Assembly (NCBI GenBank): GCA_902765395.1
Contig: CACWZP010000019.1
Span: 1-64,000, forward strand
Direction: 5' to 3'
Origin: an uncultured Eubacteriales bacterium
GTDB lineage: Bacteria; Bacillota; Clostridia; Christensenellales; Aristaeellaceae
Length of the DNA: 64,000 bases
In this document: positions 3,023 through 18,690 of the stretch, piece by piece
Numbering within the stretch: the stretch's first letter is position 1
How the letters are laid out: every line of letters begins with the position of its first letter
Made by a program: the position numbers and the translations under genes
The notes under the pieces: model-generated
Database searches by the model: none
What the model was told of the DNA's origin: nothing
What the model saw: the letters and a program-made list of their open reading frames with translations, nothing else

Positions 3023-3700
3023 TCAATCTTTGGTATTTGGCGCGTCGTCCAGCATCCGCGCGATCAGGAAGTGGATGTTCTTGCCCTGGGCGGTGTACAT
3101 CTGCTCGTGCTCGCTGACGTAGTTCGGCGCAAAGCCGGAGGCGTGCAAGTCGTCGGTGAGGTACGCGATCTCAAAGCCGCACTCGGCGAAATAGCGCTTC
3201 GAGGCCATGAACAGCGCGTCGTTGTCGGTCTTGAACCAGATCTCCCCGCCAGGCCTTAAAAACGCCCGGTACTGCGTCAGCTGCCTGGGGTGGGTCAGGC
3301 GGCGCTTGTGGTGCTTGGCCCGCTCGTCCCAGGGGTTGGGGAAGGAGATGTAGATGCGCTCGATGCCGTCGGCGGCGTTGAACGTGTCGTGGATGCGCAG
3401 GGCGTCCACGGCGGAGAGCAGTATGTTCCCCGGCGGCTGCTCGCCGTAGGCCGCGCGGATGTTCTTCACCGACACCGCCAGCACGTGGCGCACCTCGTCC
3501 ACGGCGATGTAGTTCACGTCCGGGTTCTCGTGGGCCATCTGCGCGGTGGACACGCCCTTGCCGCAGCCGATCTCCAGCATCACGCGCTGCCTTTTCTCAA
3601 ACAGCTCCGGCCATCGGCCGATGTGCTTCGAGGGCTCCTCGATGAAAAACGGGCAGCTGTCCAGCAGGGGTTCCGTCCAGGCCCTTCTTCGCATGCGCAT
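3023..3700 (-). CDS. trmB: tRNA (guanine-N7-)-methyltransferase
   Basis: TrmB makes m7G46 in the variable loop of many tRNAs using S-adenosylmethionine. The 225-residue protein has the SAM-binding loop EIGCGKG (about residues 43-49), the acidic VDALR region, and the family motif FPNPWDERAKHHKRRL; family members usually have FPDPW, so Asn replaces Asp here. Length is typical. The ribosome site AAAGGAG lies within the end of the upstream small membrane gene, whose stop is 3 nt from this start, so translation is probably coupled. An alternative ATG two codons in would be farther from the ribosome site. Confidence 0.93.
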   Translation of the reverse strand: MRMRRRAWTEPLLDSCPFFIEEPSKHIGRWPELFEKRQRVMLEIGCGKGVSTAQMAHENPDVNYIAVDEVRHVLAVSVKNIRAAYGEQPPGNILLSAVDALRIHDTFNAADGIERIYISFPNPWDERAKHHKRRLTHPRQLTQYRAFLRPGGEIWFKTDNDALFMASKRYFAECGFEIAYLTDDLHASGFAPNYVSEHEQMYTAQGKNIHFLIARMLDDAPNTKD

Positions 3701-10272: not shown

Positions 10273-11127
10273 CTACTCCTCAAACAGCTCGCCGATCTTC
10301 AGCTTCGCCCGGTACACCTCGTTGCGGGCGTAACCGGCTTCCGTCGCCGCCTGGGCAGCCTGGCGCAGGTCGTCGCCCTCCAGCACGCGCGACAGCATGA
10401 ACGCCGCGGCCTCCGGGCGCTGGACGGGGGCCTCCGCGGGCGGGAGCATCGAGATGTCCACCGCCAGGCAGTATTCGCCCTTCTCCACGCTGGGATTGGC
10501 CTGGAGCTCCGCCAGCACCGCCGGGGCCGTGCCGCGGTAGAGGCGCTCGTAGCGCTTGGTCAGGTCGCTGCACACGCACACAAGGCACTGGGGCCACTTT
10601 TCCGCCAGCGCCGCAGTCAGCTCCACGATCCGGTGGGGGGATTCGTACAGCACGAACACGGGGATCCCCGCCCGCCGGATGGCGTCCAGCTTGTCCGTGA
10701 GCGCCTTTTTCTCCCGGGGCAAAAAGCCGTAGAAGGCGAACTCCCGGGCGTCGAAGCCGCTGGCGGACAGGCAGGTGGCCACCGCCGTTGGCCCGCATAC
10801 CGGCTCCACGGGGATGCCGGCCTCCCAGCAGGCGCGCACCAGCAGGTGCCCCGGGTCGGAGATGCCGGGTGTGCCGGCGTCACAGGTCAGCGCCACGGTC
10901 AGGTCCTCCGCGAGCATCTTTTCCACGATCTGCGGGGCCTTGCCCTCCTCGTTGTGCCGGTGGCAGGAGGTCATGGGCTTCTTCAGGTCAAACTGATTCA
11001 GCAGCTTCATCGTCACCCGGGTGTCCTCGGCGGCGATCAGGTCGGCCGCCTCCAGCGCCTCGCGCATCCGGGACGTCAGATCGTTCAGGTTGCCGATGGG
11101 GGTGGCGACCACGTACAGCTTGGGCAT
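10273..11127 (-). CDS. rsmI: 16S rRNA (cytidine(1402)-2'-O)-methyltransferase
   Basis: RsmI 2'-O-methylates C1402 in the decoding centre of 16S rRNA, next to the base N4-methylated by RsmH (also in this window). The 284-residue tetrapyrrole-methylase fold shows the N-terminal VATPIGNLNDLT, AAEDTR (about 33-38), CDAGTPGISDPG (about 82-93) and GPTAV motifs. The ribosome site GGAG is 8 nt from the ATG. It lies 12 nt downstream of the YdcF-like gene, so it is probably the last gene of a minus-strand operon that includes another 16S rRNA methyltransferase. Confidence 0.95.
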   Translation of the reverse strand: MPKLYVVATPIGNLNDLTSRMREALEAADLIAAEDTRVTMKLLNQFDLKKPMTSCHRHNEEGKAPQIVEKMLAEDLTVALTCDAGTPGISDPGHLLVRACWEAGIPVEPVCGPTAVATCLSASGFDAREFAFYGFLPREKKALTDKLDAIRRAGIPVFVLYESPHRIVELTAALAEKWPQCLVCVCSDLTKRYERLYRGTAPAVLAELQANPSVEKGEYCLAVDISMLPPAEAPVQRPEAAAFMLSRVLEGDDLRQAAQAATEAGYARNEVYRAKLKIGELFEE

Positions 11128-11139
11128 GATCGAATCTCC

Positions 11140-11955
11140 TTATCCGTTATCATGGGCCGGGTCGGCCGCGGAGGCATACATAGGATTGGCCTCGCGGACG
11201 CGATCCCCATAGACGACCTTCAAGGCCTCGAAGGCGCTGACCACGTCTTCCGGGACGTCCACGTGGGCGATGTATCCCTTCCCATTCGGCCCGTAGCCGC
11301 CCGTGTCGTCGGTCAGCCGGGGGATCTCGCCCATCAGCAGCCGGATGTAACGCGGCATGTCCCACATGCCGTGGATGTCTTCTTCATAGACCAGCTCGCC
11401 GCCCGCCCGGCAGACGGTGGCGGCGTAGGCGGCGTAGTTGACGATGCGCAGGCCCTTGGGCGCGTATTTGCGCATGCCGGCGTCCATCCGGCGCTGCATC
11501 GTCGCGTCCTGGCACAGCAGGATGCTCTCGCAGGGCACGCTGTGCGCGTGCAGCAGCGCAAGCAGGTTGGTGATGTTGTTGCCGCAGTTGGTGGATGCCG
11601 TCTCCAGAAAGTCCGCCTCACAGCCGTGCACATGGCGCAGGTAGCGCTGGAAGACCTCGGCCTCCGGCAGGTCGGCGGTCTCGATCTGCGGATACTCGCC
11701 GTGCACCCTCAGCCGCAGAGATTCAGTCGTGTGCCCCTCGCCGCCGACGATGACCGTGGTCCTCGCCAGGCCGCCGCGGATGGCCCGGGCCAGCAGGTCT
11801 CCGCCCGCGAGGATGCTGCCGCCGAACAGCACCATCACGTCCACGCGCCCGATGCCGAAAGCCTCAATGAGCGCGGCGCGGTCGAGCCGCTCGATATCCC
11901 GCTGGCCGCAGAAGCGGGCGAGGGTATTGATATACTCACAGACGCGATCCTGCAT
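11140..11955 (-). CDS. YdcF/DUF218-like protein
   Basis: This is a 271-residue protein with the DUF218 (YdcF/ElyC/SanA) pattern: a hydrophobic strand leading into VLFGGSILAGGD, then IVGGEGHTTESL, STNCGNNITNLL and CQDATMQRRM, matching the family's D-GG, GG, E-x-x-S/T-x-N and R segments. There is no signal peptide or transmembrane segment, so it is cytoplasmic like YdcF, which binds SAM; its reaction is unknown. The start lies 3 nt beyond the stop of the methyltransferase gene, and the ribosome site overlaps that stop, so the two are translationally coupled. Confidence 0.8.
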   Translation of the reverse strand: MQDRVCEYINTLARFCGQRDIERLDRAALIEAFGIGRVDVMVLFGGSILAGGDLLARAIRGGLARTTVIVGGEGHTTESLRLRVHGEYPQIETADLPEAEVFQRYLRHVHGCEADFLETASTNCGNNITNLLALLHAHSVPCESILLCQDATMQRRMDAGMRKYAPKGLRIVNYAAYAATVCRAGGELVYEEDIHGMWDMPRYIRLLMGEIPRLTDDTGGYGPNGKGYIAHVDVPEDVVSAFEALKVVYGDRVREANPMYASAADPAHDNG

Positions 11956-11958
11956 GGT

Positions 11959-12762
11959 TCATCTCCCGCCGCCCGGCTGCGCCAGCACGAAAAACAGCTC
12001 GTTCTCCGTCTCGAAGGAGCCGACTTCGGTACGGTTTGACGGCATGTGCCCTGCCATCCACTCGGCGTAGTGCGCCGCCATGCCCACGTTTCGGCCGCCC
12101 AGCGTGCGGGTGGGGAAGGAGACGACGATATAATCGGCGTTCACAGCGTTCATCACGTCCAGCGCCGCGCCGCTTCTCTGCCGCTCCAAAAGCGGCAGCA
12201 GCTTGAACATCAGGCACAGGTCAAAGTGTTTCCCGGGGATGGCGCCGGGGCAGAGGACGTCCGCGCAGACGCCCCTGACCGGCGCTCCGTAGGTCTCGCC
12301 GAAGCCGTTGACGGCGGATACCGCGAGGCCTGATATGTCCACGCCCGTGGTGTCGATGCCCCGCGAGCCGAGGTAGATGGGGTTGATGCCGCAGGCCAGG
12401 TCTAAAACAGACCGAGGTCGGCTTGTTATGTCGAACAGGCGCGAATAGAGGGCATCCATGGCTGCGATGGGCAGCCTCTCCCGGGTGGAGGCATGCCGGG
12501 AGAGCATTCTTTCCAGACCGATGTCGGTTTTCTTTATCGACCACTCCTGCATGTCCCAGGCCAGGTGTTTGGCTTCGTCCGGCGTCATGAACGCGCCGCT
12601 GATGCCGTGCAGCGCCTCACGGGCGGCCTTCTCGGCGTCCCTGGGCTTCTTGTATTTGCGCTGGCATTCCTCCCACACACGGCGCACCGTGTCCGGGCAG
12701 ATGTCGCGGTAGTTCTTCGATTGCAGCAGCTTGTCCAACGGATCGTTGCGCTGTTCAGCCAT
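11959..12762 (-). CDS. Arm/Rmt-like 16S rRNA (guanine-1405-N7) methyltransferase homologue
   Basis: The 267-residue protein strongly resembles aminoglycoside-resistance 16S methyltransferases (ArmA, RmtB, Sgm; FmrO family). From memory of RmtB it shares the N-terminal helical domain (YRDICPDTVRRV, LHGISGAF), HASTRERL (90-97), the SAM loop LACGINP (122-128), FKLLPLLE (186-193) and SFPTRTLGGR (215-224). Two positions conserved in RmtB/Sgm (Lys and Glu of GKGMEANY) are Val226 and Ala229 here, so activity is uncertain. It is flanked by housekeeping RNA-modification genes with similar base composition, not by mobile DNA. GAAGGAG precedes the ATG. It may confer high-level resistance to 4,6-disubstituted aminoglycosides or act as an intrinsic modifier. 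Confidence 0.85.
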   Translation of the reverse strand: MAEQRNDPLDKLLQSKNYRDICPDTVRRVWEECQRKYKKPRDAEKAAREALHGISGAFMTPDEAKHLAWDMQEWSIKKTDIGLERMLSRHASTRERLPIAAMDALYSRLFDITSRPRSVLDLACGINPIYLGSRGIDTTGVDISGLAVSAVNGFGETYGAPVRGVCADVLCPGAIPGKHFDLCLMFKLLPLLERQRSGAALDVMNAVNADYIVVSFPTRTLGGRNVGMAAHYAEWMAGHMPSNRTEVGSFETENELFFVLAQPGGGR

Positions 12763-12853: not shown

Positions 12854-13939
12854 TCACTCGGCACTGCCGAGCAATGCCATCAGCCGCCCGTAGAACCGCA
12901 GGTTGTGGGCGGTGGCCAGGCGCAGGGCGGCAGGGTCGTTCACCTTGAACAGGTGGTGCAGGTAGGCCCGGGAGTATTTCCGGCACAGCACGCAGTCGCA
13001 GGCGGGGTCCACGGGCCCGGCCTCCCGGCGATGCTCGTCGTCCAGGATGTACAGGAATTTGTAGAACTTCCCGTCCGCGCGGCGCACGCCCTCGGGCGTG
13101 TCCATGCCGTCCAGCCAGGTGTACAGCCGCTGGTGCCGCGCCTCCCGGGTGGGGATCACGCAGTCGAACAGCGTGTAGCCCATCTGGACCAGCTGGGCGA
13201 TCTCCTCCGGCCGGCCCAGGCCCATGGCGTACTTGATCTTGCCGTCCGGCATGGCGTCCGCGGCCATTTTGAGGATGTCCGGGCGGAAATTGCCGTCGGA
13301 ATCCAGCGGCCAGCCGCCGAAGCCGTAGCCGTCGAAGCCGATCTCCTCCAGCCGTCGCCCGCACTCCATGCGCAGATCCGGGTCGCTGCCGCCCTGCACG
13401 ATGCCGAACAGCTTGGGCTTTTTGTCCAGCTTCTTCGCCAGCTTGTCGAACTCCGCCCGGCAGCGCTCGCCCCACTTCACGGTCAGATCCACACTGCGCC
13501 GCTGCACGTCCATGGGGTCGTCCGGGTGGGTGCACATGTCCAGCGCCATCATGATGTCCGAGCCGTACTGGAACTGCACCTGGATGCACTTTTCCGGCGT
13601 GAAGGTCAGCTTTTCCCTGCCCCGGTCGGGCCGGAAGATGATCTCCTTGTCCCGGATCTCGCCGTATTCCGGGTTTTCCCGGATCAGCGAATACAGCTGG
13701 AACCCGCCGGAGTCGGTGAGGATCGCGCCTGAGTACCCGGTGAAGCCGTGCAGCCCGCCGAGGCTCTTGATGAGCTTCGCGCCGGGCTTGGTCATCAGGT
13801 GATAGCTGTTCATCTCGCAGCCCTGCAGGCCCGCCGCGTCCACGTCCTCGAACGCGCCCGCGCGGATCGCGCCGTAGGTGGCGTCCGGGAAGAAGGCCGG
13901 CAGTCGGACGGAGCCGGAGGGGGTTTCCAAATATTGCAT
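12854..13939 (-). CDS. tgt: tRNA-guanine transglycosylase (queuine/preQ1 family)
   Basis: It exchanges G34 of GUN-anticodon tRNAs for a 7-deazaguanine. The 361-residue protein has general-acid Asp76 (LTDSGGFQ), catalytic Asp259 in LFDCVIPTREARH, and a C-terminal zinc site CDCVLC plus a downstream His. The base-pocket loop, usually GGLAVGE, reads GGWPLDSDGN (208-217), so substrate choice may differ from classical preQ1 enzymes. No queuosine synthesis gene (queC-D-E-F, queA, queG) is in the window. GAGGT lies 4 nt before the start. It is on the same strand as the methyltransferase gene 91 nt downstream. Confidence 0.92.
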   Translation of the reverse strand: MQYLETPSGSVRLPAFFPDATYGAIRAGAFEDVDAAGLQGCEMNSYHLMTKPGAKLIKSLGGLHGFTGYSGAILTDSGGFQLYSLIRENPEYGEIRDKEIIFRPDRGREKLTFTPEKCIQVQFQYGSDIMMALDMCTHPDDPMDVQRRSVDLTVKWGERCRAEFDKLAKKLDKKPKLFGIVQGGSDPDLRMECGRRLEEIGFDGYGFGGWPLDSDGNFRPDILKMAADAMPDGKIKYAMGLGRPEEIAQLVQMGYTLFDCVIPTREARHQRLYTWLDGMDTPEGVRRADGKFYKFLYILDDEHRREAGPVDPACDCVLCRKYSRAYLHHLFKVNDPAALRLATAHNLRFYGRLMALLGSAE

Positions 13940-13985: not shown

Positions 13986-14504
13986 CTACAGGGAAAGTGA
14001 TGACAGGATTCGTTCGACGTTCACTTCGATGGGCAGAGCTGCGTCCAGCGCCAGCACCGGGCAGTCCAGCCCGATCAGGCTCTCTTCGACGCTGGCGTCA
14101 GTGCGGGCGGCGGCCATGGCGTGAAAGCGCCGCTGGCCTTCGTACATGTCGCCCCCGGGCAGCACCCGCGCGCCGAACCGTTGAAGCTCCCGCTGCTCGA
14201 TGCGGGACATTCGCAGGCCCGCCGGCGCTTGCAGCCATGCAGCCAACGCAGCGTGGCTTCGAATGGCCTCACCCAGGTCGGCGCGGACGGAGGACAGCAC
14301 GAAATCGCCGTGTGCACGGATGTCCTCCAGCATCCTCCGGCGCACCTCGTCTTTCGACCGGGCATTGGCGTAGGGCACGGTCATGTCGGGGAAGTAGTAA
14401 TCCTCCACATCCAACCGCAGCCATCCAAGGCGCGCTGCCAGCGCGCGGCCCAGTGTGGTCTTGCCGCAACCGTTCAGGCCGACGATCAGAATGCCCCGCG
14501 TCAT
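13986..14504 (-). CDS. small P-loop kinase-like protein, coupled to rsmH
   Basis: This is a 172-residue nucleotide-binding protein starting with a clear Walker A, GLNGCGKTT (about residues 9-17), after a beta strand, then the short LDVEDYYFPD segment typical of shikimate, adenylate or nucleoside kinase-like proteins. A lid-like region rich in Arg follows. I cannot name the substrate. Its ATG overlaps the rsmH stop in ATGA, so its translation is coupled to rsmH. The long open frame upstream of this ATG is just rsmH read in another frame. Confidence 0.8.
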   Translation of the reverse strand: MTRGILIVGLNGCGKTTLGRALAARLGWLRLDVEDYYFPDMTVPYANARSKDEVRRRMLEDIRAHGDFVLSSVRADLGEAIRSHAALAAWLQAPAGLRMSRIEQRELQRFGARVLPGGDMYEGQRRFHAMAAARTDASVEESLIGLDCPVLALDAALPIEVNVERILSSLSL

Positions 14505-15448
14505 AGCTTTTCCAGTATCCGCAAACTCGCGCTTCTCGACCTCGGGTTCTGCGCCAGCTCCGCGTCGGAGGCCGTGATGGGTTTGCGGGTGACGAGCTTC
14601 ACCGTGGGCTTCTTCCCACAGACGCACACGGGGAAGGACTTGGGGCAGGTGCAGGGGTCGGCGAGGCTTCGGAAGGTGTTTTTGACGATGCGGTCCTCCA
14701 GAGAATGGAAGGTGATCACGCACAGCCGCCCGCCGGGGTTCAATAAACCGACCAAAGTCCGAATTGCTGGCTCCAGTGGGTCCAGCTCGTCGTTCACCGC
14801 GATGCGCAGCGCCTGGAAGGTGCGCCGGGCCGGGTGGCTGCCGTCCGTGGAGCGGAACTTCTTCGGGATGGCGGCGTCGATAATGTCCACCAGCTGGGAC
14901 GTGGTTTCGACCGAAGTCTGTTTTCGACGGTCGCAGACCACCCGGGCGATCTGCCGCGCCCACTTCTCCTCGCCGTAGTCGCGCAGGATGCGGTTCAGCT
15001 CGTCTTCGCTCCAGGTGTTCACGATCTCCCGCGCCGTCAGGCCCTGGCTCTGGTCCATGCGCATGTCCAGCGCAGCGTCGTCGTGGTAGGAAAAGCCCCG
15101 CTCGCGCACGTCCAGCTGGTGGCTGGACACGCCCAGGTCGACGAGGATCCCGTCCAGACCCCGGTCTATTTTAGCCTCCGCCAGCAGCGCGGGGGCGTCG
15201 TGGAAGTTGCCCCGCAGGCACGTAAAGCGGGCCGGAGTCTCGATGCCCCCCAGCCGCGTGGAGGCCGCCTCGATGGCGTCGGCGTCCCGGTCGATGCCGA
15301 TGAGCAGGCCACCTTCGCCCAGGCGCTTCAATATCTCGGAAGAATGGCCCGCACCACCGAGGGTGCAGTCGAGATAGACCCCGGTCGGTTTTACGTTCAG
15401 CCCGTCCAGACATTCGTTCAGCAGGACGGGGAGATGGTGAAATTCCAT
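14501..15448 (-). CDS. rsmH: 16S rRNA (cytosine(1402)-N(4))-methyltransferase
   Basis: RsmH (MraW) methylates N4 of C1402 in 16S rRNA; RsmI makes the 2'-O-methyl on the same base. The 315-residue protein shows the start MEFHHLPVLLNE, the SAM loop DCTLGGAGHS, DLGVSSHQLD, RTFQALRIAVN and FHSLEDRIVK motifs. GAGGGAG lies 5 nt before the chosen ATG; a 48-codon extension upstream has no ribosome site. Unusually, it is not next to mraZ, ftsL or pbp genes as in a standard dcw cluster. Confidence 0.96.
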   Translation of the reverse strand: MEFHHLPVLLNECLDGLNVKPTGVYLDCTLGGAGHSSEILKRLGEGGLLIGIDRDADAIEAASTRLGGIETPARFTCLRGNFHDAPALLAEAKIDRGLDGILVDLGVSSHQLDVRERGFSYHDDAALDMRMDQSQGLTAREIVNTWSEDELNRILRDYGEEKWARQIARVVCDRRKQTSVETTSQLVDIIDAAIPKKFRSTDGSHPARRTFQALRIAVNDELDPLEPAIRTLVGLLNPGGRLCVITFHSLEDRIVKNTFRSLADPCTCPKSFPVCVCGKKPTVKLVTRKPITASDAELAQNPRSRSASLRILEKL

Positions 15449-15653: not shown

Positions 15654-16664
15654 TCAAATCTTCCACGGCGCGATGCCCAGCTTCTTGCGCACCTTCAGCA
15701 TGGTGCGGTGGGCGATGGCGCCGGCGCGCTCCCGGCCGGAATCCATCACCTGCTGCAGGTAGGCCTTGTCGGCGGAGATGCGGTCGTACTCGCTCTGGAT
15801 GGGCGAAAGCGTCTCGATCACCGCGTCGGCCACGGCGTCCTTGAACTTGCCGTAGCCCTGGCCGTCGTACTCGGCGGTGATGTCGTCCATGCTCTTGCCG
15901 GTCAGCGCGGACAGGATGCTCATAAGGTTGGCCACGCCGGGCTGCTTCTCCGGGTCGAACACCACGCGGTTCTCGCAGTCCGTCACGGCGTGGCGCACCT
16001 TCTTGCGGATCACGTCGGGCTTGTCCAGGATGGCGATGTAGGTCTCCTCCGGGTCCGACTTGGACATCTTGCGGGTCGGCTCCTGCAGCGACATCACGCG
16101 CGCGCCCACCTTCGGGAAGTAGCCTTCCGGGATGGTGAACACGTCGCCGTAGACGCCGTTGAAGCGCTCGGCGATGTCCCGGGCGATCTCCAGGTGCTGC
16201 TTCTGGTCCGCGCCGATGGGCACCAGGTCGGTCTGGTACAGCAGGATGTCTGCCGCCATCAGCACCGGATAGGTGAACAGGCCGCAGTTGATGTTGTCGG
16301 CGTGCTTGGCTGACTTGTCCTTGAACTGGGTCATGCGGCTCATCTCGCCCATGTAGGTGAAGCAGTTCAGGATCCAACCCAGCTCCGCGTGGGCGGCCAC
16401 CTGGCTCTGGAAGTAGATGATGTTCTTCTCCGGGTCCAGGCCACTGGCCAGGAAGATGGACATGGTGCGCAGGCAGGCCTTGCGCAGCTCGGCGGGGTTC
16501 TGGCGCACGGTCAGCGCGTGCAGGTCCACGATGGAGTACAGGCAGTCGTACTCGTCCTGCAGCAGCGAGAAATTGCGCAGCGCGCCGATGTAATTGCCCA
16601 GCGTCAGGTTGCCCGTGGGCTGTATGCCGGAAAAGATGCGTTTCTTTTGAATCTGCTGTTCCAT
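15654..16664 (-). CDS. trpS: tryptophanyl-tRNA synthetase
   Basis: It charges tRNA-Trp. The 336-residue class I synthetase shows the HIGH-equivalent GIQPTGNLTLGNYIGA near the N-terminus, the tryptophan pocket segment LLYQTDLVPIGADQKQH, and KMSKS as RKMSKSDP (about residue 198). Length matches bacterial enzymes. GGAGG lies 8-9 nt before the ATG. It is transcribed alone from a strong promoter; no T-box or trp attenuator is visible in the short leader. Confidence 0.97.
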   Translation of the reverse strand: MEQQIQKKRIFSGIQPTGNLTLGNYIGALRNFSLLQDEYDCLYSIVDLHALTVRQNPAELRKACLRTMSIFLASGLDPEKNIIYFQSQVAAHAELGWILNCFTYMGEMSRMTQFKDKSAKHADNINCGLFTYPVLMAADILLYQTDLVPIGADQKQHLEIARDIAERFNGVYGDVFTIPEGYFPKVGARVMSLQEPTRKMSKSDPEETYIAILDKPDVIRKKVRHAVTDCENRVVFDPEKQPGVANLMSILSALTGKSMDDITAEYDGQGYGKFKDAVADAVIETLSPIQSEYDRISADKAYLQQVMDSGRERAGAIAHRTMLKVRKKLGIAPWKI

Positions 16665-16821: not shown

Positions 16822-18615
16822 CTACGGCCTGCTCGCTGATGCCTGCTCCGCGATGCGCTCCGCCAGGTCGTTCAGGTACACCCAGCGCTCGGTCTTGTGC
16901 TCCAGCTCCGCCTCCAGCGCCTGCTTCTGCCCGGTCAGCTCCTGCAGCTTCACATAGTTGCTGGCGTTTTGGGCGATGGCTTCGTCGCAGGCGGCGATCT
17001 GCGCCTCCAGGGCCTCGATGTCCGCGTCGATGGTGTCGTACTCCCGCTGCTCCTTGAAGCTGAACTTCAGCTTCTGCGGCCGGTTTTGCGGCTTCTGGGC
17101 GGACACGGTCTTCTTCGGCGCGGCGGCCTTTTCCGCCACCTTCCGCTTTTTCAGGTAGTCGCCATGGTTTCCCTCGTAGCGGTTGACCTGTCCCCCGGGT
17201 ACCACCTCGAAGATGCTCCCGGCCACCTTGTCCAGGAACCAGCGGTCGTGGCTGACGGCGATCACCGCGCCGGGGAAGGTGTCCAGATAGTCCTCCAATA
17301 TGGTCAGCGTCTCGATGTCCAGGTCGTTGGTGGGCTCGTCCAGCAGCAGTATGTTCGGTGCGGCCATCAGTATGCCCAGCAGGTACAGCCTGCGCCGCTC
17401 GCCGCCGGACAGCCTGCCGATGGTGGAGTACTGCAGTTCCGGGGTGAACAGGAACCGCTCCAGCATCTGGGCGGCGGAGAAGCGCCCCTCCTCCGTGCGC
17501 ACATCCGAGGCGATCTCGTGGATGTAGTCCCAGGGCCGCTGGCTCATGTCCAGTTCCCGGCCCTCCTGGGTGAAATAGCCGATCTTCACCGTGCCGCCGT
17601 ACGCCACCGTTCCGGAATCCGGCGGGAGCGTCCCGGCGATGAGGTTTAAAAGCGTGCTCTTGCCCGCGCCGTTGGGGCCGACGATGCCGATGCGGTCGTC
17701 CCGCAGCACGGTGTAGGAGAAGTCGGCGATGACGGCCCTGCCGCCGTAGGACTTACTGACGTGGTCCAGCTCGATGGTCTTGCGGCCCAGCCGGGACGCC
17801 GCCCCCGCCACGGCCACGGTGCCCTGCGCTTCCGGCCCAGCCTGGGCCTTCAGCGCCTCGTAGCGGGCGATGCGCTCGGTGGACTTGGTGGAGCGCGCCT
17901 GGCAGCCCCGCATGATCCACTCCGTCTCCTTCTTTAAAAGCTGCTGGCGCTTGCGCTCGCTGGCGGTGGCCATCTCCAGCCGCTGGGCCTTCAGCTCCAG
18001 GTAGCCGGAGTACTTGGCGTCGTACAGGTACAGCTCTCCGCGGTCCAGCTCGGCGATCCTGTTCGTCACCCGGTCCAGGAAATAGCGGTCGTGGGTGACC
18101 ATCACCAGCGCGCCGGTGAACCGCTGCAGCCGCTGCTCCAGCCAGGCCACCATGTCGCCGTCCAGGTGGTTCGTGGGCTCGTCCAGCACCAGTATGTCCG
18201 CGGGGTGCACGAACACGCTGGCCAGGGCCACCCGCTTGCGCTGGCCGCCGGAGAGGGCGCTCACCTTCCGGTCGAAGTCGGTGATGCCCAGCTTCGTGAG
18301 GATCGTCCGCGCCTCGTATTCGTTCAGCGCGCGGAATTCGGCGGGAAAGTCGGCGAACACCTGCTCCATCACGGTGTTGTCGTCGTCCATCCTGGGCGTC
18401 TGGGGCAGGCAGGCCAGCTGCACGTTGGGGTCGCGGCTCACGCGGCCGGAATCCGCCGCCTCCGCGCCCGCCAGCACCTTCAAGAGCGTGCTCTTGCCGG
18501 TGCCGTTCCCGCCGATCAGGCCCAGCCGGTCGCCGGCGTTCAGATACAGCGTCACGTCCCGGAGCAGCTTCCTGTCGCCATAGTCCTTGGCGAGGTGTTC
18601 AGCGGACAGCAGCAT
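16822..18615 (-). CDS. ABC-F family ATPase (Uup/YfmR type)
   Basis: This is a 597-residue soluble protein with two ABC ATPase domains and no membrane part, so it is a translation factor-type ABC-F protein, not a transporter. Walker A motifs are GGNGTGKST (about 35-43) and GPNGAGKST in the second half; signatures are LSGGQRKRVALA and LSGGERRRLYL; Walker B motifs are ILVLDEPTNHLD and ILLLDEPTNDLD. A linker with charged helices joins the domains. The C-terminal region (about 525-597) is a two-helix coiled coil beginning KEQREYD, as in Uup and YfmR. AGGAGG precedes the ATG. Confidence 0.92.
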   Translation of the reverse strand: MLLSAEHLAKDYGDRKLLRDVTLYLNAGDRLGLIGGNGTGKSTLLKVLAGAEAADSGRVSRDPNVQLACLPQTPRMDDDNTVMEQVFADFPAEFRALNEYEARTILTKLGITDFDRKVSALSGGQRKRVALASVFVHPADILVLDEPTNHLDGDMVAWLEQRLQRFTGALVMVTHDRYFLDRVTNRIAELDRGELYLYDAKYSGYLELKAQRLEMATASERKRQQLLKKETEWIMRGCQARSTKSTERIARYEALKAQAGPEAQGTVAVAGAASRLGRKTIELDHVSKSYGGRAVIADFSYTVLRDDRIGIVGPNGAGKSTLLNLIAGTLPPDSGTVAYGGTVKIGYFTQEGRELDMSQRPWDYIHEIASDVRTEEGRFSAAQMLERFLFTPELQYSTIGRLSGGERRRLYLLGILMAAPNILLLDEPTNDLDIETLTILEDYLDTFPGAVIAVSHDRWFLDKVAGSIFEVVPGGQVNRYEGNHGDYLKKRKVAEKAAAPKKTVSAQKPQNRPQKLKFSFKEQREYDTIDADIEALEAQIAACDEAIAQNASNYVKLQELTGQKQALEAELEHKTERWVYLNDLAERIAEQASASRP

Positions 18616-18690
18616 GGGCAAACCTCCTGTCAGGGTTGATTGCATGATGCAGGGGCGCCTCAACGGCGCCCCTGCAGGGGACAAGACGGA

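Follow-up and report, generated by a model that had tools for sequence, protein, structure and literature searches.

The rmt gene at positions 11959–12762 of the window, the stretch of 64,000 nucleotides analysed here, appears to be a native 16S rRNA methyltransferase gene, coupled to a transglycosylase paralogue (Tgt2), of a herbivore-gut Clostridia lineage that is the probable source of the plasmid-borne resistance genes rmtD and rmtG; taken as a whole, this explanation is likely to be right. The gene would be vertically inherited in an apparently uncultured lineage, and its product would place m7G at G1405, a side effect of which should be ribosomes that no longer respond to 4,6-disubstituted deoxystreptamine aminoglycosides. 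It would work within a housekeeping cluster together with RsmH and RsmI, modifiers of C1402 three nucleotides away. Tgt2 would be evolutionarily bound to Rmt, the two enzymes sharing an RNA target or acting on coupled ones, and captured pieces spanning the trpS end through the rsmI start, with IS91-type and IS26 elements beside them, would have given rise to plasmid rmtD and rmtG. The features of the locus are as follows.

10273..11127, minus strand: rsmI, 16S rRNA C1402 2'-O-methyltransferase, downstream end of the operon (TIGR00096, 199.4 bits; cut-off 167.9)
11140..11955, minus strand: DUF218-like gene inserted locally between rmt and rsmI (PF02698, 26.8 bits, slightly below the cut-off of 27.6)
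11959..12762, minus strand: rmt, putative chromosomal FmrO/Rmt-family 16S rRNA (G1405-N7) methyltransferase, 267 aa (profile searches, alignment, structure)
12854..13939, minus strand: tgt2, paralogue of tRNA-guanine transglycosylase, non-canonical and paired with rmt, 361 aa (PF01702, 306.9 bits)
13301..13318, minus strand: codons for GGWPLD in Tgt2 (residues 208–213), the changed nucleobase-pocket loop; canonical Tgt has GGL[AS]VGE
13986..14504, minus strand: small kinase-like gene of AAA type, inserted locally between rsmH and tgt2 (PF13238; NF004861, partial)
14501..15448, minus strand: rsmH, 16S rRNA C1402 N4-methyltransferase, with the start chosen at MEFHHLPV (TIGR00006, 381 bits; cut-off 154.3)
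15654..16664, minus strand: trpS-like tRNA synthetase of class I (W/Y), forming the upstream end of the segment shared with rmtG plasmids (PF00579, 251.2 bits)

The rmt open reading frame fills exactly the interval given, starts with ATG and is present in one copy in the source genome (3.4 Mb, 53 contigs). It encodes a real member of the FmrO/Rmt family. The protein scores 123.1 bits against Pfam FmrO (cut-off 27) and 267.8 bits against NCBIfam NF000466, the model of Rmt family 16S rRNA (guanine(1405)-N(7))-methyltransferases (cut-off 250), and its top match among solved structures is RmtF (6pi9, E 1.5e-57), followed by RmtB and Sgm; these results bear out the homology to Arm/Rmt enzymes that an earlier note had claimed from the sequence. 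The RmtD, G, F, B, H, E and C subfamily models are all matched below their cut-offs, with 267.2 bits for the RmtD model NF000007 (exception cut-off 500 bits) and 225 bits for the RmtG model (cut-off 500), placing the protein outside both named subfamilies. The predicted structure (pLDDT 94.2) features the helical N-domain and Rossmann fold of RmtB and RmtF, with TM 0.83–0.86 over the query against the crystal structures of RmtF (6pi9) and RmtB (3frh), so that the modelling proposed in the same note also speaks for the assignment.

The motifs HASTRERL, LACGINP, FKLLPLLE and SFPTRTLGGR, listed in that note, are all found in the translation. At 23 positions the seven acquired enzymes RmtB1, C, D1, E, F1, G and ArmA are identical; the window Rmt keeps 21 of these, the changes being K to R41 and L to M204, and 77 chromosomal relatives keep 20–23. 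The residues Val226 and Ala229 were correctly numbered, Ala229 standing where six of the seven acquired enzymes have Glu. They had been taken as a hint of altered activity, which is weak because RmtG has V and A at the matching positions and the first is V in RmtD, RmtF and RmtC as well; the notion that the pair marks lost activity was rejected on the same ground. Identity to the window Rmt is about 51% (50.6–51.8%) for RmtD and 45–47.4% for RmtG, which belong to the same fold family, 43.8% and 42.0% for RmtF and RmtB, and 29.7% and 24.1% for RmtC and ArmA. By structure matches, RmtC, ArmA and the producer enzyme Sgm share the fold of the window protein.

Family membership and the retained residues make it most likely that the window Rmt would put m7G at G1405 of the decoding centre. 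16S sequences were retrieved from 11 of 25 genomes, ten of which could be read, the eleventh (G868) being without the stretch. The sequence CCCGUCAC around position 1405 is identical in four Rmt carriers (three Chloroflexota, one Nitrospirota) and six Rmt-less genomes; an altered 16S target in carriers was rejected on the strength of the four read. No 16S match came from seven carriers of the window's order that were tried, or from the window genome.

The gene is embedded in a conserved order, trpS-rsmH-tgt2-rmt-rsmI, and leuS also lies nearby in the window. A scan found 213 relatives, of which 80 named loci from Clostridia, Chloroflexota, Nitrospirota and Armatimonadota were kept; many of these are too short to hold all five genes, and matches were found to tgt2 in 77, rsmI in 52, rsmH in 40 and trpS in 29. 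In particular, tgt2 lies within 400 bp of rmt on the same strand in 75 of the 80 loci, across all four phyla. The five others have tgt2 farther off (L139, L147), a match within 100 bp of the contig start (L107, L113) or none seen (L125). rsmI adjoins the tgt2-rmt pair outside the Clostridia as well (L118, L121, L137, L138, L145, L146). The kinase-like gene is matched in three of the 80 loci, outside the conserved order, and was rejected as a conserved member of the operon; matches to the DUF218-like gene are confined to the source genome's own loci. The housekeeping rRNA/tRNA surroundings described in the earlier note are thus confirmed by rsmI, the Tgt paralogue, rsmH, trpS and leuS. Its placement of rmt off any mobile element likewise agrees with the absence of mobile-element families among the immediate rmt neighbours scanned and with the presence of the gene throughout most of its genus. 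Acquired enzymes reportedly interfere with the action of RsmI at C1402 and of RsmF at C1407 (available part of PMC12406665).

Within the genus, NF000466 matches at E <=1e-10 occur in 27 of 28 genomes, 26 of them above the cut-off, and the genome lacking one is 67% complete. In the wider samples, each of which counts the window genome, Rmt occurs in 53 of 200 genomes of the family at E <1e-10 (69 at E <=0.001; 26 above the cut-off), in 8 of 297 of the order and in 4 of 391 of the class. An acquired (mobile) 16S methyltransferase is recognized by carriage on a plasmid or transposon; the window rmt is instead a chromosomal gene, core in its genus, unlike plasmid rmtD and rmtG, and with its conserved gene order it looks intrinsic. 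By their record titles, its relatives include metagenome-assembled genomes from horse faeces and from the gut or rumen of sheep, roe deer, goat and water buffalo. Named relatives include many RUG isolates, which we take to be from rumen, 'Lapin' isolates, probably from rabbit to judge by the word itself, Candidatus Faecivicinus and Candidatus Pullichristensenella.

Comparison with a sister species (L075) gives dN/dS of 0.134 for rmt, 0.022 for trpS, 0.043 for rsmH, 0.023 for tgt2, 0.024 for rsmI and 0.015 for leuS, at 90% identity for rmt and 98–99% for its cluster neighbours. The gene is under purifying selection, yet it is the fastest-changing of the cluster, several times faster than trpS, rsmH, tgt2 and rsmI. 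For remoter pairs the estimator often reverted to a cruder method, and those values are not comparable. Carriage by phage was rejected: no relative of the window Rmt was found in viral contigs, and two 'phage' records match at 26%, over the same query range as armA. These two records, CAKLQH020000068.1 and CAKLQF020000043.1, are short entries labelled 'Acinetobacter phage' with an armA-like FmrO gene and are possibly mislabelled mobile-element contigs.

The link to clinical resistance lies in the flanks of the plasmid genes. Searching plasmids with the window Rmt returned 1,588 records, all below 60% identity, the best among the matches listed being RmtD1 at 50.6%. Searching with the window Tgt2 returned 69 records, 12 of them at 60–80% identity, and all 12 carry rmt: two rmtD, eight rmtG and two rmtB2 (one strain). 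An ordinary enterobacterial Tgt is about 39% identical to the window Tgt2. Since Tgt2 at 60–80% identity accompanies 12 plasmid records as against more than 1,000 with an Rmt relative, it is evidently unneeded for acquired resistance.

Six of the 12 plasmids were opened. As in the window, tgt2 lies directly upstream of rmtD and rmtG, with pieces of trpS, rsmH or rsmI in the same order. The rmtG plasmid reproduces the window arrangement of trpS end, rsmH, tgt2, rmtG and rsmI start, with identities of 73% (72.6%) over the last 95 residues of trpS, 76% over the whole of rsmH, 77% for tgt2, 45% for rmtG and 81% over residues 1–79 of rsmI. The rmtD2 plasmid holds the last 126 residues of rsmH (83%), tgt2 (80%) and rmtD2 (51%), and the rmtD1 plasmid a 45-residue rsmH end (61%), tgt2 (80%) and rmtD1 (51%). 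The two rmtB2 plasmids opened, from one strain, also carry tgt2 (64%), followed by a metallophosphoesterase gene and rmtB2 (41%). Transposases of the IS91 type are found close to rmtG, rmtD2 and rmtB2, whereas rmtD1, rmtD2 and rmtB2 have IS26 nearby. Unlike the window, the rmtF and rmtB1 genes opened have no tgt2 match within 3.5 kb on either side, and the rmtC and armA genes opened none within 3 kb; none was seen near rmtE in the stretch opened. The tgt2-rmtD1 and tgt2-rmtG segments are each repeated within one plasmid (L059, L150). The metallophosphoesterase gene (L063, 5646–6455; L149, 4646–5455) sits between tgt2 and rmtB2 on both plasmids of one Providencia strain, and could possibly serve as a tag for the rmtB donor; no match to it, or to the CorA and antiporter genes by rmtB2, was found in the fetched chromosomal loci.

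The plasmid segments reach about 74% DNA identity at best with the nearest fetched chromosomes, and the exact donor species of the rmtD and rmtG segments was not found among these. RmtD is at most 57% identical to any fetched chromosomal Rmt, while its Tgt2 neighbour reaches 83%.

Trees were built for Rmt (69 rows, and a wider one of 96 rows) and for Tgt (75 rows), on sets leaving out RmtA, RmtH, Sgm and WarA. The window Rmt falls within the FmrO family, the outcome on which the earlier note had staked its assignment. RmtD1/D2 and RmtG form a group (98/94) nested in a Clostridia clade of 35 rows (100/98), RmtF, which the Rmt tree also puts among these Clostridia, joins two genomes of the window's family (98/87), RmtE groups with a genome of the same class (100/99), and RmtB stands in a 55-row clade (100/99) as sister to the remaining 53 rows (97/91). 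RmtC and ArmA lie outside the window clade in the 96-row tree, on long branches whose join is unsafe. In the Tgt tree, Tgt2 and canonical Tgt are split at 100/100; the Tgt2 of rmtG groups with metagenome-assembled genomes L081 and L098 (98/97), that of rmtD falls within a 37-row clade (97/83), and that of rmtB2 is sister to 53 rows in a 54-row clade (100/99). As RmtD and RmtG are sisters and their Tgt2 proteins are not, the two may be separate captures, or the trees may not be fully resolved.

Together, the plasmid flanks and the tree nesting make the window's Clostridia lineage the probable source of rmtD and rmtG; the same lineage is likely to be the source of rmtF and rmtB too. Gene context and nesting point to transfer from chromosome to plasmid; a donor lineage outside the sample could also have supplied both. 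The earlier note had offered an ancestor or reservoir of acquired resistance and an intrinsic rRNA modifier as alternatives. Both descriptions hold, the gene being native by its genus-wide presence and order, and a likely source by the plasmid flanks and trees.

The association of Rmt with Tgt2, on which the earlier note is silent, extends well beyond the window. The window genome has two TGT genes, 37% identical: tgt2, and one followed by a yajC-like open reading frame. In a chosen set of 37 genomes, all 21 Rmt carriers have Tgt2 and at least one ordinary-type TGT match (Tgt2 is in two pieces in G554 and G475, and the ordinary TGT of G475 is in fragments), and all 16 non-carriers have exactly one TGT, at 35–38% identity. 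A census of 200 genomes of the family found 51 with both, two with Rmt only, none with Tgt2 only and 147 with neither (Fisher p 1e-45); one of 201 genomes of Chloroflexota, the phylum of Levilinea, found 35, four, none and 162, respectively (p 5e-35). These p-values ignore shared ancestry and are descriptive. Tgt2 without Rmt was thus seen in 0 of 309 Rmt-less genomes of the two censuses, where absences are not error-free (the screen missed the Tgt2 of G1026) and 13 of the 200 genomes from the family yielded no TGT at all.

Of six Rmt carriers scored as lacking Tgt2, three in fact have it, two are truncated at contig ends and one is a true exception. In the family, the end of tgt2 lies at a contig end in G153, and rmt itself is cut in G078. 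In Chloroflexota, the Tgt2 overlooked in G1026 is adjacent to rmt, that of G927 is cut by a contig end, rmt is cut in G981, and the one clear exception, G1050 (L219), has its FmrO gene on a 2.9 Mb contig with no Tgt2. The two genes are retained even where they are unlinked: in G049, G077 and G040, rsmH-tgt2 and rmt-rsmI are on separate contigs, in G049 well inside both. The paired Tgt2 of G554 (C25:23606-24847), matched in two pieces, is one open frame of 459 aa, perhaps with an in-frame insertion. Two FmrO genes occur in some Chloroflexota, in tandem in G868 (Levilinea, L222 3790–5414), G1042 and G1074, 3 kb apart in G978 and, in G1018, on two contigs; the additional gene may act on a different target.

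Tgt2 retains the TGT fold, the model (pLDDT 93.2) giving TM of about 0.84–0.87 to Zymomonas TGT, and like canonical Tgt it has Asp102, Asp156, Asp280 and the zinc ligands. It scores 296.8 bits against TIGR00430, the equivalog model of queuosine Tgt, below the cut-off of 306.75. The pockets of 92 distinct paired Tgt2 proteins, from fetched loci and plasmids, were compared with 11 canonical TGTs, in the numbering of the Z. mobilis enzyme. The catalytic machinery is kept, with D280 in 92 of 92 and in the canonical enzymes, D102 in 91 (one gap) and each zinc ligand in 89–91. The base-recognition loop is different: the alignment pairs GGLAVGE of Z. mobilis with GGWPLDS of the window Tgt2 (L231W, A232P, V233L, G234D and usually no E235). 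Position 232 is proline in 92 of 92 paired Tgt2 (serine in ten canonical enzymes and alanine in one), position 231 is tryptophan in 91 (leucine in all 11 canonical), and E235 is present in six (all 11 canonical). In Tgt, the Ala232 backbone amide binds guanine N7 via a water, guanine and preQ1 are accommodated by a flip of the Leu231/Ala232 peptide that Glu235 balances, and serine at 232 is common in bacteria (available part of PMC3660597). The Leu231/Ala(Ser)232 switch with Glu235 is thus absent from Tgt2, and N7 sensing cannot work in the same way because a proline at 232 has no amide NH. Pro232 would be in keeping with a base whose position 7 is blocked or carries a substituent, and N7 is the atom that the partner enzyme is predicted to methylate.

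On the co-occurrence, we infer that Rmt and Tgt2 form a joint rRNA-modification system with the same or a coupled RNA target. A bolder form would have Tgt2 act as an rRNA transglycosylase on the product of Rmt, taking m7G1405 or another 7-substituted base and swapping it out. It is suggested by the failure to find Tgt2 without Rmt in the two censuses, by the proline in place of the N7-sensing NH and by the neighbouring Trp, and is to our minds doubtful; if true, it would mean a hypermodified decoding-centre base or an eraser of m7G by base exchange. A simpler view is that the two genes are merely co-regulated, Rmt acting on 16S rRNA and Tgt2 changing the wobble guanines of tRNA, for instance to another base, with no shared substrate. 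TGT enzymes of known function act on tRNA, Tgt2 keeps its zinc site and catalytic aspartates, and rsmH, rsmI, trpS and leuS give the locus the look of a translation gene cluster. However, the absence of genomes with Tgt2 only, set against 51 and 35 with the pair, exceeds what membership of an operon needs, and so does retention of both genes when unlinked. The 21 carriers tested also have an ordinary-type TGT match (fragments in G475), and Pro232 with the loss of Glu235 in 86 of 92 removes the known guanine/preQ1 switch. Co-regulation alone is possible, if somewhat short of probable.

Two further alternatives concern Rmt itself. The chromosomal enzyme may have diverged to another RNA site and lost m7G1405, as its fast evolution relative to the neighbours and Ala229 might suggest; this is improbable in view of the Val/Ala pair shared with RmtG, the invariant positions kept here and in the 77 relatives, and the fold match to RmtF and RmtB. 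That the window gene is a recently acquired resistance gene in a commensal outside the source lineage would fit its passing a resistance-gene model (NF000466) and its patchiness in the family, order and class samples. This is highly implausible and was rejected on the genus distribution, the conserved gene order and the tree, in which the plasmid genes nest within the chromosomal ones; the rmt dN/dS also speaks against it. The preferred reading remains a native Rmt coupled to Tgt2.

The nearest chromosomal relatives of RmtD and RmtG found, with the flanks attached, are those of gut commensals with rmt in a housekeeping cluster, and the origin of rmtD and rmtG becomes directly testable. Antibiotic producers have been named as ancestors of clinical 16S methyltransferases (available parts of PMC12406665 and PMC12340973). 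The present findings imply that modifying the ribosome can be the ordinary job of an enzyme acting at the aminoglycoside site, and the pairing of a Tgt subfamily with Rmt in four phyla would be a new RNA-modification pair. An rmtG operon that includes rsmH, tgt and rsmI (rsmL as printed) has been published before (PMC9311965, section 3.8, seen in excerpt, which cites Passarelli-Araujo 2019), as has a putative tRNA ribosyltransferase upstream of rmtG (PMC3904158, in excerpt). A literature search over partial texts, with term matching in PMC10400643 and PMC12188727 included, found neither a Clostridia origin of rmtD/rmtG nor the Tgt2-Rmt pairing; Passarelli-Araujo 2019, Doi 2008, Tijet 2011 and Srinivas 2023 may say more. 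What we did not find in print is the chromosomal source lineage of rmtD and rmtG, the rmtG operon itself being known.

Named cultured carriers of the pair are Chloroflexus islandicus, Dictyobacter and Levilinea saccharolytica. Elsewhere in the window, an ABC-F protein (16822–18684, minus strand) just upstream of trpS-rsmH scores 474.8 bits against NF000355, a ribosomal protection-like ABC-F model (cut-off 380). A Methyltransf_4 protein (3023–3700, minus strand), presumably a TrmB-like tRNA m7G enzyme, gives a sub-threshold match to the NpmA model (26.9 versus 60 bits).
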